DNA of 61,461 nucleotides, taken from the NCBI GenBank assembly GCA_022822425.1, contig JAJEBS010000292.1, positions 1 to 61,461 of the forward strand. Direction: 5' to 3'. The stretch comes from Gemmatimonadota bacterium (lineage in GTDB: Bacteria; Gemmatimonadota; Gemmatimonadetes; Longimicrobiales; Gaopeijiaceae). Both the position numbers and the translations under genes were made by a program. Of this stretch, positions 48,933-56,057 are shown one piece after another. Each line of letters begins with the position of its first letter. The first letter of the stretch is position 1. The notes beneath the pieces were generated by a model. That model did not search any database and was not told where the DNA came from. It saw only the letters and a program-made list of their open reading frames with translations.

Positions 48933-50177
48933 TTACTCGTACCTCAGGGACTCCACCGGATCGAGACGCGCCGCCTTGCGCGCAGGCAGGATTCCCGCCA
49001 CGAGCCCGATCGCCATGAGCATGCCGACGCACATCGACGCGATCGGGAGCGAGAGTTTCGGGTTCAGGATGTACTCCATGGCCGGGTTGTCGCTGGGAAT
49101 GCTGTCAATGCCGATCACCAGGAGCGAGGCGACGGCGAGTCCGAGCAAACCCCCGCCGACCGTGATGACGACCGCTTCCGAAAGGAACTGGTTGACGATG
49201 TGCCGTCGGCGCGCGCCCACGGCGAGCTTGATGCCGATCTCCCGTGTCCGCTCACGGACGACGACGTACATGATGTTCGCGACGCCGACCCCGGCGACCA
49301 GCAGCGTGAAGGCGCCCACCAGCCCCAGGAAGACCTGGATGCCGTAACCGATCTGGCCCACGATCTTCTCGTCTTCGATGAAGTCCCAGATGCCGAGCGC
49401 TCGTTCGTCCTCAGGATCGAACCTGTGCCGGCCACCGAGAACCCGGTACAGCTCCCGCTTGGCGACCGGCGCGTCCGCCACGTTGCGCGGCCGCACGAGG
49501 AGGTGGTTCACGAATTCGGTGCCATAGATGCTCCGGAACGTCGAGGCGGGGATCACGGCGCGGTTCTCGTCGGGACCGTTGTTGCTCGAATCCTGGAATT
49601 TGGATTCCATCACGCCGATTACCGTAAACGAGAGCCCGTCGAGCAGGACGGTCTGTCCCACGGGCGGTGTGTCGCCGAACAGACGCGCCGCGATCTCGTC
49701 ACCCAGGAAGAGCACGCGCCTCCTCTGATCCACGTCGCGCTGATTGATGAACCGTCCGCCGGGAGCGGGGAACATGCGCCGAAGCTCGGAGAAGATCGGG
49801 TTCACGCCCTCCATGTAGGTCGTGGTCTGGTTCTCGCCCGCCTTGAGATGGGTCCTGCCGCGCCCGTAGGACGGGCTGCCGAACTCGAACTCCGGGATCG
49901 CACGCAGCACCAGGTCGAGATCATCTTCGCGCAGCCGTATCCGGCGTCCCTGCGAGAGACCCTCGTGCTCGAGGCTCGTCTGGCCGCCGTAGACCATGAA
50001 GATTCGCTCTCCCGCATTGAGCAGGCCCTCCGAAACCTGAGTTCGGAGCCCCCGGCCGAAGGCAAGCAGCAGAACGATCGAGATCGTGCCCCACACCATC
50101 GCGAAGATGGTGAGGAAGCTGCGAGTGCGGTTGGCCCGCAGGTCGCCGAGCACGTCTGCGAGGAGGATCTTCCACAT
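48933..50177 (-). CDS. FtsX/MacB-type ABC permease, second of pair
   Basis: 414 aa. One N-terminal helix (F-L-T-I-F-A-M-V-W-G-T-I-S-I-V-L-L-L-A-F-G-R), a large periplasmic domain at ~50-280 with F-L-G-D-E-I-A-A-R-L-F-G, then three C-terminal helices carrying G-I-K-L-A-V-G-A-R-R and ending L-D-P-V-E-S-L-R-Y-E. It is a clear paralogue of the next gene: both have R-R-R-V-x-F-L-G-D-E, G-V-A-N-I-M-Y and L-D-P-V-E. The stop abuts the stop of the convergent binding-protein gene. It works with the HlyD-type adaptor upstream; no ATPase is encoded here. Confidence 0.88.
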   Translation of the reverse strand: MWKILLADVLGDLRANRTRSFLTIFAMVWGTISIVLLLAFGRGLRTQVSEGLLNAGERIFMVYGGQTSLEHEGLSQGRRIRLREDDLDLVLRAIPEFEFGSPSYGRGRTHLKAGENQTTTYMEGVNPIFSELRRMFPAPGGRFINQRDVDQRRRVLFLGDEIAARLFGDTPPVGQTVLLDGLSFTVIGVMESKFQDSSNNGPDENRAVIPASTFRSIYGTEFVNHLLVRPRNVADAPVAKRELYRVLGGRHRFDPEDERALGIWDFIEDEKIVGQIGYGIQVFLGLVGAFTLLVAGVGVANIMYVVVRERTREIGIKLAVGARRRHIVNQFLSEAVVITVGGGLLGLAVASLLVIGIDSIPSDNPAMEYILNPKLSLPIASMCVGMLMAIGLVAGILPARKAARLDPVESLRYE

Positions 50178-51485: not shown

Positions 51486-52580
51486 CTAGGTGATCTCGCG
51501 TCGCGGGGGCTCCATGACGCGCTCGCCCTCCGCCAGGCCGTCGAGCACCTCGACGCTGATCCCGTCGCTGAGACCCGTCCTGATCTCGCGCTCCTCGGTC
51601 TCCTCGGGCCCCACGCGAACCGTCACGAACGCTCCGCCCTCCTCGAACCTGACCACGCGCTCCGGGATGATCAGGATGTCCGAGCGGCGCTCGATGATCA
51701 CCTGGGCGTTGGCCGAATAGCCCGCTCTCAGCAACGTGCCCTCCGCGGGCAGGACCGCGATTTCAACCGGAAAGATGGTCGCGTTCTCCTCGTCGCGTCC
51801 CGTGAGCGAAATCCTCGTCAGCCGCCCCTCGAGGCGCGCGTCGGGAAGCGCCCCGATCGTGACCTCGACCGGCATTCCCTCCGCCAGCCGGCCCACATCG
51901 ATTTCATCGACCGTTCCGCGAAAGAGCAGTTCGTCCATCTCGGCCATCGTCATGAGAACGGTCCCTTCCTGGAACGTCGTGAGCGGGACCACCGGATCTC
52001 CGATTTCCACCATTTTCTCAAGGATGAAGCCCTGGATGGGGCTTTGGATGACCGTCTCCACGGCCTCGTCTCCGATCGTCACGCGGCCTTCCGAGAGCAG
52101 GGCCAGGCGCTCCCGGGCGATCTGGAGCTGGAGCGAGACCTCGCTGAGCGAGTATTCGGCGTCCTCGAACTCCTGTTCCGATGCGAGTTCCCGGTCGCGC
52201 AACTCAGCCAGCCGATCGCGACGCCTCTCGAGTTGCTGCAACTCCATCTCGCGCAATTCGATGTTGCGGCGCGCCTCGACCAGTTCGATCGGTGTCGGGT
52301 TGGGCTGGACTTCGAGCAGAGGCTCACCCTGCCGGACGTATTGGCCGGGCTCCTTGAACATCCGGCGCACGACGCCCGCGAGTTGTGATTTCACGCTTAC
52401 TTCGACGAGCGGTTCAATGCGTCCGACCGCGAGGGCGCGGTCCACGATCTCACCCCTCTCCACAGCGACGGCGTCCACCTCCGTATCGCTGCCGCCCGCG
52501 GCCGTAACCACCGCGAACGCCGAGGCTCCCAGGCCTCCGACCACGATCGTGCCGACAACCATCTTCGTGCCTGTTCCCAT
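51486..52580 (-). CDS. HlyD/MacA-type periplasmic adaptor protein
   Basis: 364 aa. N-terminal membrane anchor (V-V-G-T-I-V-V-G-G-L-G-A-S-A-F-A-V-V). Lipoyl-like halves with V-S-V-K-S-Q-L-A-G-V-V and I-Q-S-P-I-Q-G-F-I-L flank a coiled coil (residues ~105-175: R-E-M-E-L-Q-Q-L-E-R-R-R-D-R-L). A beta-barrel and membrane-proximal domain follow (I-L-I-I-P-E-R-V-V-R-F). It links the inner-membrane permeases to an outer-membrane channel. First gene of the three-gene set; the MacB ATPase is missing and must be encoded elsewhere. Confidence 0.9.
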   Translation of the reverse strand: MGTGTKMVVGTIVVGGLGASAFAVVTAAGGSDTEVDAVAVERGEIVDRALAVGRIEPLVEVSVKSQLAGVVRRMFKEPGQYVRQGEPLLEVQPNPTPIELVEARRNIELREMELQQLERRRDRLAELRDRELASEQEFEDAEYSLSEVSLQLQIARERLALLSEGRVTIGDEAVETVIQSPIQGFILEKMVEIGDPVVPLTTFQEGTVLMTMAEMDELLFRGTVDEIDVGRLAEGMPVEVTIGALPDARLEGRLTRISLTGRDEENATIFPVEIAVLPAEGTLLRAGYSANAQVIIERRSDILIIPERVVRFEEGGAFVTVRVGPEETEEREIRTGLSDGISVEVLDGLAEGERVMEPPRREIT

Positions 52581-53973: not shown

Positions 53974-54010
53974 CGCAGAACGTAACTACAATTTGCCTTC
54001 GGGAACAGGC

Positions 54011-55456
54011 ATGTCCGAGCCCGCCACCTACGTCGCCGTCGTGAAGGACGAGTGCGAAACCTGCCACTTGGCGGTGCCCGTCCTCGCCGAGATCCACCAG
54101 GCCGGCCATCCGCTGACCATCTGTTGGCAGGACGACGGCGGATTCCTGGGCCCAGGCCTCGCCGTCGCAGCCGTGGACGACCGCGCCCTCAAGCGCTCCT
54201 TCCAGCTCGCCGTCGAGACGGTACCTACGCTGATCCGGCTGGAGGGCGGTGCGGAGACCGGCCGCACGGTTGGCTGGAGTCGTGAAGACTGGCGTGCGCT
54301 CACGGCTATCCCCACGCTGGGCACGGGACTGCCGCCCCACCGGCCCGGCTGTGGCTCCCGCTCGGTGGAGCCGGGGGTCGTGGAGGCCCTGCGGGTGCGC
54401 TTCGGCGAAACCGGAATCCGCGCGCGCACGGTCGAGGTCGCTTCCAGCGCCGACGCGATCGAGGCGTGCTATGACCGCGGCTGGAGCGACGGCCTCCCGG
54501 TCGTCCCGCCGACGCCCGAGCGCATCCTGCGCATGCTGGGCGGCACGCGCCGCGACCCGCACGAGGTCATCGGCGAGATGCCCCCCGAGCTGGCGTCCTG
54601 CACTGTCGAGAAGGTCGCCATCAACGCCGTCATGGCCGGGTGCCGCCCCGAATACATGCCGGTCGTGCTGACGGCCCTCGAGGCCGCCCTGGATCCGGGG
54701 TTCACCCTGCACGGCGTTACCTGCAGTACCTGCTTCTCGAGCCCGGTGATCATCGTCAACGGACCCATCGCGAAGCGCATCGGCATGAACTCGGGACTCA
54801 ACGCACTCGGACAGGGGAACCGGGCCAACGCCACCATCGGCCGCGCGGTGAACCTCGTGGTCCGCAATGTGGGCGGAGGGCGGCCCGGCGAAATCGACCG
54901 CGCGACGCTGGGCTCTCCGGGCAAGTACACGTTCTGCTTTGCAGAGGATGAGGGCGACGATGGCTGGGAACCGCTGGCCGTCTCGCGCGGAATCGCTCCC
55001 GGCAGGAGCGCGGTGACGGTGTTCGCCGGCGAAGGGATCCAGGGGGTGACCGACCAGAGGGCGCGCACGCCACGCGAACTCACCCGCTCCCTGGCGATGG
55101 GGCTGCAGGCGGTGGGACATCCCAAGCTGTGCGAGTGGGCGGCCGCCGTTTTGGTCCTGTCACCCGAACACTACGCCATCTACCGCGAGGCGGGATGGGA
55201 CCGGAGCCGGATCACCAGCGCGCTCCAGGACGCGCTGCTGCTCCCGGGCGAGAAGGTGGCGGCGGGCGCCGACGGCGTCGCGGAGGGAATGCCCCCCTCC
55301 CGCGCGGGCCAGCGCATCCCCAAGTTCCATCCCGGCGCCCTTCTGCTGTTGCGAGCCGGGGGTCCCGCCGGGCTGTTCTCGGCCATCCTGTCGGGTTGGC
55401 CGGGGGGGCGCCTGTTCGAGGAATCCCACCCCGTTACCAGAGAGATCAGCGAATGA
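54011..55456 (+). CDS. Thioredoxin-like/unknown-domain fusion coupled to the selenoprotein gene
   Basis: 481 aa from ATG 54011. Residues 1-100 look like a thioredoxin-type domain: V-V-K-D-E-C15-E-T-C18-H-L-A-V-P-V, then V-P-T-L-I-R-L, with a C-x-x-C site. The large remainder (D-G-L-P-V-V-P-P-T-P-E-R-I, G-E-M-P-P-E, a C-S-T-C-F-S-S motif near 238-244 and V-V-R-N-V-G-G-G) belongs to no family I can name. It is the kind of protein that accompanies UGSC selenoproteins. The last codon overlaps the next ATG (ATGA), so the two are co-translated. I infer a redox pair; the reaction is unknown. Confidence 0.7.
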   Translation: MSEPATYVAVVKDECETCHLAVPVLAEIHQAGHPLTICWQDDGGFLGPGLAVAAVDDRALKRSFQLAVETVPTLIRLEGGAETGRTVGWSREDWRALTAIPTLGTGLPPHRPGCGSRSVEPGVVEALRVRFGETGIRARTVEVASSADAIEACYDRGWSDGLPVVPPTPERILRMLGGTRRDPHEVIGEMPPELASCTVEKVAINAVMAGCRPEYMPVVLTALEAALDPGFTLHGVTCSTCFSSPVIIVNGPIAKRIGMNSGLNALGQGNRANATIGRAVNLVVRNVGGGRPGEIDRATLGSPGKYTFCFAEDEGDDGWEPLAVSRGIAPGRSAVTVFAGEGIQGVTDQRARTPRELTRSLAMGLQAVGHPKLCEWAAAVLVLSPEHYAIYREAGWDRSRITSALQDALLLPGEKVAAGADGVAEGMPPSRAGQRIPKFHPGALLLLRAGGPAGLFSAILSGWPGGRLFEESHPVTREISE

Positions 55457-55989
55457 CAGAATCCACCGTCACCCTGCACGATCCCACCTCCGAGACCGCG
55501 CCCGCAACGCGTCCGCGGTGCAGGCCCCCGGCGTCGCTGGACGGCAGGACGGTGGCGCTCTTCGACATCGGCAAGTCCCGCGCCGACGAGTTCCTCGACT
55601 GCCTCGAGGCACGGCTCCGCGCCCGGGGGATCGCCACCGCGCGCTTCGCGAAGCCGACCAACGCCAAGCCCGCCACGAGCGCGATCCTGGACGACATCGC
55701 CGCCGGCGCCGACGTGGTCGTGGAGGCGCTCGCTGATTGAGGGTCGTGCGTATCGTGCGGTCTGCACGACATCAAGGCCCTCGACGATCGCGGCCTCCCC
55801 GGCCTCCTGATCGCCACCACCGCCTTCCGCGAGGCGGCCTCCTTCCAGATCCCCTCGCTCGGCTTCGAGCCGGAGATTGTGTGGGTGCCCCACCCGGTCC
55901 AGAACCGCCACCCCGAGGAACTCGAGCAGCTCGCGGAGGACGCGCTGGACGCGATCCTGCGTGGGCTGATGTCCGGGGGCGAGGGGTGA
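55453..55989 (+). CDS. UGSC-family selenoprotein (in-frame UGA = selenocysteine 96)
   Basis: 178 aa including Sec96. The frame from ATG 55453 reaches TGA at 55738-55740 and continues without interruption to a second TGA at 55987-55989. The junction reads V-E-A-L-A-D-U-G-S-C-V-S-C-G-L-H-D, the U-G-S-C motif of a known bacterial family in which Cys replaces Sec in many members. The domain before it starts G-R-T-V-A-L-F-D-I-G-K-S, and the one after it has P-S-L-G-F-E-P. The downstream part is clearly coding (normal codon use, helix-rich end). A bSECIS-like hairpin follows the TGA. Function unknown; the family is presumed redox-active. SelA/B/C/D lie outside the window. Confidence 0.87.
55738..55768 (+). 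promoter_or_regulatory. Bacterial SECIS element with UGA-Sec codon
   Basis: After the TGA (55738-55740) a hairpin is formed by CGTGC (55754-55758) and GCACG (55764-55768) closing the loop GGTCT (55759-55763). The loop occupies nucleotides 19-23 after the codon. From memory, this is the same loop sequence and the same distance as in E. coli fdhF, the best studied bSECIS. The 3' arm can also pair with GTCGTGC at 3-9 nt after the TGA, a longer competing stem. Together with the intact downstream frame this strongly supports selenocysteine insertion rather than termination. Confidence 0.85.
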
Positions 55990-56057
55990 TACTATCGCAG
56001 GTCGACTGATGATACTATGAGGGGTGGCCACGGACGTAGCCGTTCGGCCGACCCCCG

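Follow-up and report, generated by a model that had tools for sequence, protein, structure and literature searches.

A UGSC-family selenoprotein gene in Gemmatimonadota and its near-obligate partner, components of a putative thioredoxin-fed reductase

The stretch of DNA analyzed here (the window) is 61,461 nucleotides long and represents one entire contig (JAJEBS010000292.1) of the 4.4-Mb draft genome of a Gemmatimonadota bacterium (assembly GCA_022822425.1). Positions 55453 to 55989 contain a frame with an internal TGA: an open reading frame (ORF) that starts with ATG at 55453 meets TGA at 55738-55740 after 95 sense codons, and the same frame then continues for 82 sense codons up to a stop TGA at 55987-55989. 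An earlier note, made from the letters alone, had proposed that the first TGA encodes selenocysteine (Sec) within a U-G-S-C motif, and the frame does read in this way, with ...ALAD-U-GSCVSCGLHD... around the putative Sec. The evidence presented here supports the identification of 55453-55989 as a selenoprotein of the UGSC family, first published in 2008 (PMC2398784), with a UGA predicted to be recoded by the genome's own SelA, SelB, SelD, and tRNA-Sec through a downstream hairpin. It also points to the gene immediately upstream, unmentioned in the earlier note and referred to below as the partner, with which UGSC may form a selenium-dependent reductase.

55453..55989, forward strand: UGSC-family selenoprotein gene, 178 residues, Sec as residue 96 (UGSC profile matches; protein-level selection on both sides of the UGA)
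55738..55740, forward strand: in-frame UGA, the U of UGSC, predicted to be decoded as Sec (TGA kept across relatives)
55753..55769, forward strand: predicted apical hairpin of a bacterial Sec insertion sequence (bSECIS), stem UCGUGC/GCACGA, loop GGUCU at +19 to +23 (folding, covariation, published bSECIS limits)

Coding beyond the UGA and conservation of the codon

With Cys written for Sec, the product matched the Pfam family PF24696 with 122.2 bits (cut-off of 25, E value of 3.2e-35) and the NCBIfam model NF041046 with 117.8 bits, 7 bits below the naming cut-off of 125. The proposed family membership is thus confirmed by the first model and falls just under the threshold of the second. Codon differences were counted against six close relatives, which are also related to one another. 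Beyond the UGA, the proposed frame had 63 synonymous to 32 non-synonymous differences and the two alternative frames had 8:85 and 8:84; before the UGA, the ratio in the proposed frame was 69:44. The nearest named relatives are Gemmatimonadota genomes from metagenomes, and two close ones are labelled Gammaproteobacteria.

To evaluate conservation, we retained the 80 most similar of 554 relatives from named genomes, and TGA was found at the Sec column in all of these best 80 (locus L116, with two TGA within the matched stretch, was dropped from the UGSC counts). A sample of 395 genomes of the phylum contained UGSC in 49 (51 matches, 50 of them over the cut-off), with exactly one TGA in each of the 51 matches, including the weak one. 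Within a second class, that of the Reyranella genome G425, one TGA was present in 61 of 62 matches, and the sole Cys form was that of L210. Such retention suggests a chemistry in which Cys rarely replaces Sec, and Sec was also strongly preferred in the table of the 2008 study as available to us (255 Sec versus 21 Cys homologs; PMC2398784). Several genomes carry four to six UGSC matches, with one TGA each (G449, G518, G625, G633, G643, G718, and G719).

A selenoprotein implies a Sec-decoding host, as the earlier note had pointed out, and the complete machinery was found in the same genome: SelB (307.7 bits, over the cut-off), SelD (293.5 bits), SelA (457.9 bits, split into two pieces at contig ends, the smaller of which falls below the cut-off by itself), and a tRNA-Sec with anticodon TCA (UCA in the RNA; 74.8 bits), on which ARAGORN agrees. 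Of the 49 UGSC genomes in the phylum sample, 47 have SelA (as a weak fragment in one case), compared with 243 of the 346 others (Fisher test, 4e-5), which is only a modest test because the base rate of SelA is high. The selA gene is located about 5 kb from UGSC on the same contig in G529:C73 and G561:C19.

Alternatively, the TGA at 55738-55740 could be a true stop, so that the gene encodes just 95 residues or has decayed, or it could be a sequencing error for TGC or TGT. TGA does act as a stop at this locus, where both the partner and the UGSC gene end with it, and for the same reason an alternative genetic code was rejected. However, the identical TGA in the 80 relatives kept excludes a lone read error and, together with the in-frame coding selection on the far side of the codon, leads us to reject sequencing error and pseudogene formation; with the complete Sec machinery in addition, the probability left to a true stop is practically negligible.

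A bSECIS hairpin downstream from the UGA

The loop GGTCT lies at 55759-55763, that is, +19 to +23 after the UGA, on top of a 6-bp stem without mismatches in which 55753-55758 pairs with 55764-55769. The likeness to fdhF of Escherichia coli suggested earlier held when the K-12 sequence was fetched, as a GGTCT loop is found there at the same offset of 19, although only 13 of 33 nucleotides are identical from the UGA onward. According to the accessible text of a 2026 review (PMC13188914), bSECIS elements have a loop of 3 to 9 nt, a stem of 4 to 16 bp, G in the first two loop positions, a spacing of 16 to 37 nt, and a minimum free energy (MFE) of at most -7.5. The bSECIS check recommended in the earlier note places the hairpin within these limits, with a loop of 5, a stem of 6, GG, 18 nt from the UGA to the loop, and an energy of -7.8 alone and -17.0 for 40 nt. 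Its stability is only moderately unusual (z of -1.7 to -2.4; equal stability was reached by 14, 8, and 4 of 200 shuffled sequences at lengths of 46, 40, and 53 nt, respectively), and an Rfam search of 55600-56000 returned a single chance match (E value of 7.8).

Together with 79 of the 80 related loci and 11 of 30 phylum loci, the window gave a set of 91 sequences, of which 82 form all six stem pairs; each of the other nine fails at the outermost one. The third position of a Ser codon pairs with that of a His codon, and silent changes are possible at both; the combinations were G-C, A-U, or G-U in all 41 distinct sequences and never A-C (permutation P of 0.00015, with relatedness uncontrolled). 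For 58 distinct sequences, 98.9% of the cells pair, and the covariation score was reached by none of 500 shuffles. The same was true of a 49-sequence alignment (31 of the 58 plus 18 divergent sequences, including divergent paralogs), with 98.0% of the cells pairing and again 0 of 500 shuffles, while two other measures in these 49 were not unusual (144 of 500 shuffles for pairs changed on both sides and 444 of 500 for further pair types). Cys102 is replaced by Trp in L022 and in eight distinct divergent paralogs, and the innermost pair there is G-C instead of C-G; the residue opposite the Cys102 codon changes from Leu to Phe or Ile in the eight paralogs and is still Leu in L022. In these Trp102 forms the predicted RNA pair is maintained despite the change in the protein.

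A near-obligate partner of UGSC

The gene that precedes UGSC has the following features.

53993..55456, forward strand: partner gene, likely start ATG at 54011 (residue 7 when counted from the TTG of the listed ORF), stop overlapping the UGSC start by 4 nt
54026..54304, forward strand: thioredoxin-like domain, residues 12-104, with C21-E-T-C24 (TIGR01068 in relatives; structure search)
54350..54352, forward strand: Cys120 (TGT) in PG-C-GS, a column with an in-frame TGA in 13 of 69 relatives
54440..55453, forward strand: C-terminal domain, about residues 150-487, some 330 residues, outside Pfam and NCBIfam families (a homolog adjacent to UGSC in all 20 divergent loci, fused in two)

Counts for the partner refer to 69 near-full-length copies and the window, and alignment A3 combines the window with 46 of the 69. 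The conserved start is probably the ATG at 54011. The window's own partner protein matched nothing in Pfam or NCBIfam. TIGR01068 matches 34 of the 47 aligned members (best E value of 1.3e-4), the N-terminal CxxC is present in all 69 copies, and thioredoxin-type folds ranked first in a structure search with the model of the window's partner, all of which points to a thioredoxin-like N-terminal domain. NCBIfam matches of the 47 members were limited to thioredoxin-like and similar general models, and the C-terminal domain of about 330 residues belonged to no Pfam or NCBIfam family among the members scanned. Within this domain C217 and C315 are near-universal (34 of 37 and 35 of 37, respectively). 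Foldseek matched the partner weakly with class I fumarate hydratase (E value of 2e-3, template modeling [TM] score of about 0.2), a lead that was not used. Close relatives contain a second short stretch resembling partner residues 142 to 178 or so, which precedes the partner gene by about 1 kb: L083 (5542-5634), G162:C41 (231359-231469), and G099:C52 (1591-1701); a profile search of frames of at least 60 residues detected none in the window.

In the phylum sample the partner was found in 47 of 49 UGSC genomes and in 3 of the 346 others (Fisher test, 9e-55); the match is weak in two of these three and lies at the end of a contig in the third. Among the 80 related loci, 76 have the partner, and two of the four misses lie at contig ends. 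Its stop is located at most 200 nt from the UGSC match in 63 of the 69 near-full-length cases, and 53 of the 69 loci offer a UGSC start that overlaps the partner stop by 4 nt. No other gene was as widely shared in the neighbor survey of the 80 loci, where the rest resembled within-lineage synteny.

We also selected 20 divergent UGSC regions (19 with TGA and one with Cys) from the 36 lower-scoring of the 62 matches in the second class. A homolog of the partner C-terminal domain adjoins UGSC in all 20, on either side and several times in two copies, and in L206 and L208 it forms one continuous frame with UGSC. The divergent loci examined are devoid of the thioredoxin fusion. A thioredoxin-reductase-like flavoprotein is found in the cluster of 5 of the 20. 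It immediately precedes UGSC in four of these and follows the partner genes in the fifth; CAxC is present in the four sequences that were printed, three of which were checked by Pfam. Other neighbors identified by Pfam were the transport components TctC and TctA, MR_MLE, TauD, AMP-binding, nitronate monooxygenase, and luciferase-like proteins, representing varied catabolic settings.

By these patterns of occurrence, UGSC has a near-obligate partner, which is new as far as our searches reach. The accessible text of PMC2398784 mentions a fusion of UGSC to a domain named 'Unknown_1'. This is perhaps the partner domain. Beyond that fusion, the partner is undescribed in the available text of the UGSC selenoprotein literature searched (including PMC2398784, PMC9312934, and PMC13188914), with preprints and supplements outside the search, and the word UGSC is absent from the accessible text of PMC1088965.

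A putative second selenoprotein among partner relatives

The window's partner has Cys, not Sec, at column 120, where TGC or TGT is found in 56 of the 69 copies as well. In the other 13, the codon is TGA. Twelve of these U-form loci are titled Betaproteobacteria, Burkholderiales, or Bordetella, and one only 'bacterium'. Downstream from the partner TGA, all 13 can form a 7-bp hairpin with one bulge and a 6-nt loop, CGGGGU (G in the second position; CGGUGU in L133), with an energy of -8.5 in 12 of them. The hairpin is made by seven codons, +5 to +11 after the TGA, that are nearly frozen. Of 239 columns with an invariant amino acid, 18 are codon identical, and five of these 18 belong to the seven; the only run of three or more codon-identical columns in the U-group gene falls in the hairpin.

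The 13 TGA could be attributed to sequencing error or pseudogene decay. These loci look like one related group, so a single event may explain them; 2 of the 13 genomes are without convincing SelA; the hairpin belongs to the MFE fold of a longer stretch in only 3 of 13; and in L146 its energy of -6.3 is weaker than the published limit (PMC13188914, text as available). In addition, the hairpin was drawn from the U-form sequences, and its formation in them is therefore partly by construction. On the other hand, all 13 TGA fall at a single column that is Cys in the 57 other sequences, the window's copy included. Every U form makes all seven pairs (13 of 13) and none of the 57 Cys forms does (1 to 6 pairs each; a Fisher test on this split ignores relatedness), 5 of the 7 frozen columns are codon identical (hypergeometric P of 2.6e-5 for a single stretch and of about 0.006 once all of the roughly 232 stretches are allowed for), and SelA is over the cut-off in 11 of the 13 genomes. 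Decay or error thus appears very improbable, and the partner of the U-form relatives is likely a second selenoprotein. This lineage-specific UGA is new as far as our searches reach: the 119-family table of the 2026 review (PMC13188914) lists UGSC, and in the part available to us nothing in it could be matched to the partner.

Predicted fold of UGSC and kinship with GrdB

The structure predicted for UGSC with Cys in place of Sec (predicted local distance difference test [pLDDT] score of 91.5) has alternating strands and helices in the manner of Rossmann and flavodoxin domains, with residue 96 just before a helix. Against the PDB, the model retrieved flavodoxin-like and other generic alpha/beta folds, with an E value of 1.4e-4 at best and TM scores of about 0.3 to 0.5 by query length, and the UGSC profile gave nothing better than an E value of 0.047 against PDB sequences. 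The window protein shares sequence and the Sec-containing UGSC motif with the family described in 2008 (PMC2398784). However, the available text of that study supposed a thioredoxin-like fold, which the Rossmann/flavodoxin-like model leads us to reject for UGSC.

A similarity was found to GrdB, the substrate-binding selenoprotein (PMC13188914, text as available) of glycine reductase. Around its Sec, a GrdB (PF07355) encoded in a genome of the same class has the sequence VATUGSCNRCGATISKEIERLGIP. When compared with this GrdB and nine proteins like PrdB, the D-proline reductase counterpart in PF07355, a UGSC profile of 80 sequences aligned Sec on Sec with an E value of 3e-7 and a probability of 93%, a narrower profile (A1 + A2) gave 9.3e-6, and one of 48 sequences gave 2.7e-4 (all hhalign E values are for a single comparison). 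Reversed profiles reached only 0.027 (narrower) and 0.017 (80-sequence). As a further control, 38 neighbor ORF families were considered. Two were set aside, family 0, which is the partner, and family 3, which is part of UGSC itself, and the best of the other 36 was 0.0083 with the narrower profile; two of the 36, families 1 and 12, seem to be frames on the strand opposite UGSC. The Sec half of UGSC resembles the Sec region of GrdB, and the alignment of UGSC covers just the C-terminal part of GrdB. Membership of UGSC in the GrdB/PrdB family itself was rejected, as none of 13 UGSC members matched PF07355 at E values up to 10, a search in which the HMMER filters drop most weak matches.

Two related observations were made along the way. 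L212 (G146:C75, 300-6432 of the reverse complement) resembles an operon for a reductase of the glycine/sarcosine/betaine type, with a UGA-containing GrdB that was checked by profile. Its other members would be two ABC permease-like genes, GrdE-like and GrdC/D-like genes, and a short frame similar to the start of GrdA that ends at TGA. In nine phylum loci (L163-L171), short PF07355-like proteins contain TGA in U(P/T)xC on read-through and look like further selenoproteins of the PrdB/GrdB-tail type.

A possible mechanism

The combination of a thioredoxin-like domain with CxxC in the partner and a thioredoxin-reductase-like flavoprotein in some divergent loci recalls thioredoxin/thioredoxin reductase systems; here, however, the thioredoxin-like part is joined to a domain outside Pfam and NCBIfam families and to a PG(C/U)GS motif. 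We propose that UGSC and its partner form a thioredoxin-fed, selenium-dependent reductase working like GrdB or PrdB, a reading to which we assign a probability of about 55%. The two proteins would act as one enzyme, in which UGSC supplies the selenolate of Sec96 at the start of a helix in the Rossmann/flavodoxin-like domain. The selenolate would attack a substrate, electrophilic and probably resembling an organic acid, that is bound between UGSC and the partner C-terminal domain; release of the reduced product would leave the selenium oxidized or substituted. Re-reduction could then proceed by Cys99 (UxxC), by Cys or Sec120 of the partner, and by the thioredoxin CxxC, with electrons coming from NADPH through thioredoxin reductase. 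The parts of this scheme that the data support are the Sec insertion signals, the near-obligate pairing, the fusion, the thioredoxin-like domain, and the GrdB-like Sec region.

Several observations weigh against this proposal. The partner and UGSC are separated by more than 200 nt in 6 of the 69 loci, and a start with the 4-nt overlap is missing in 16 of the 69. SelA was not found in 2 of the 49 UGSC genomes of the phylum sample (a third has the weak fragment), in 2 of the 44 loci checked among the 80 relatives (two more were below the cut-off), and in 1 of 26 genomes of a further set, for all of which genome completeness is mostly unassessed. SelA is present in the genome with the sole Cys form, that of L210, so the occurrence of Cys does not simply follow from a loss of the Sec machinery. 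The hhalign probability fell to 41 to 44% with the 48 UGSC sequences, and the comparison with the nine PrdB-like proteins alone was weaker (2.3e-4 for the 80-sequence profile and 0.019 for the narrower one). The partner C-terminal domain, compared with proteins of L212, gave E values of 0.42 for the GrdE-like protein, the subunit encoded beside GrdB, and 0.92 for the GrdC/D-like one; homology to either was rejected, and only half of the GrdB analogy is therefore supported. Finally, the nature of the substrate is a guess from neighbors (TctC/TctA, MR_MLE, TauD, and AMP-binding) that differ between loci.

UGSC could instead be a selenium-dependent peroxidase or a general thiol-disulfide oxidoreductase with an antioxidant role, and the partner its thioredoxin-type reductant. 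The UxxC motif and the thioredoxin-like domain would fit such a role, and redox functions are supposed for most uncharacterized selenoproteins (PMC13188914, text as available). However, the fold predicted for UGSC is not thioredoxin-like, the large additional domain paired and sometimes fused with it exceeds the needs of a peroxidase, and the presence of up to six paralogs per genome in varied catabolic contexts suggests several substrates. We consider this explanation unlikely, without being far-fetched. Less plausible still is a module that binds, reduces, or detoxifies metals or metalloids through Sec and cysteines. The Sec- and Cys-rich UGSCxxC motif and the near-universal C217 and C315 of the partner are compatible with it, and binding, mostly of metals, is predicted for about 20% of selenoprotein families in the available text of PMC13188914. 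Yet the replacement of C102 by Trp indicates that the third position of the UGSCxxC motif is dispensable, and among the 20 neighbors scanned by Pfam the only one of metal type was a ZnuA-type gene near the Cys-form UGSC of L210, which makes a role in metal handling quite improbable.

Elsewhere in the window, a MacB/FtsX-type permease (48933-50177, reverse strand) and an HlyD/RND-type adaptor (51486-52580, reverse strand) probably form an ordinary efflux operon.

Implications for the UGSC family

What the accessible literature had offered on UGSC was a supposed thioredoxin-like fold and one fusion. The near-obligate partner, the fusions, the feed by thioredoxin or thioredoxin reductase, and the link to GrdB turn UGSC into a testable enzyme. 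The module may represent an undescribed class of selenium-dependent reductase, a proposal we make tentatively and with the odds leaning somewhat against it, in which UGSC would be a minimal GrdB-like selenium domain and, together with a partner domain unknown to Pfam and NCBIfam, would take the place of GrdB/GrdE. In the mostly betaproteobacterial group, where the partner would be a second selenoprotein, electrons may pass from selenium to selenium between the two proteins. Different substrates may be served by the paralogs, which number as many as six per genome in one class of bacteria. The second Sec of the partner would also add to the known selenoproteins a family absent from the 119-family table of PMC13188914, as far as that table was available.

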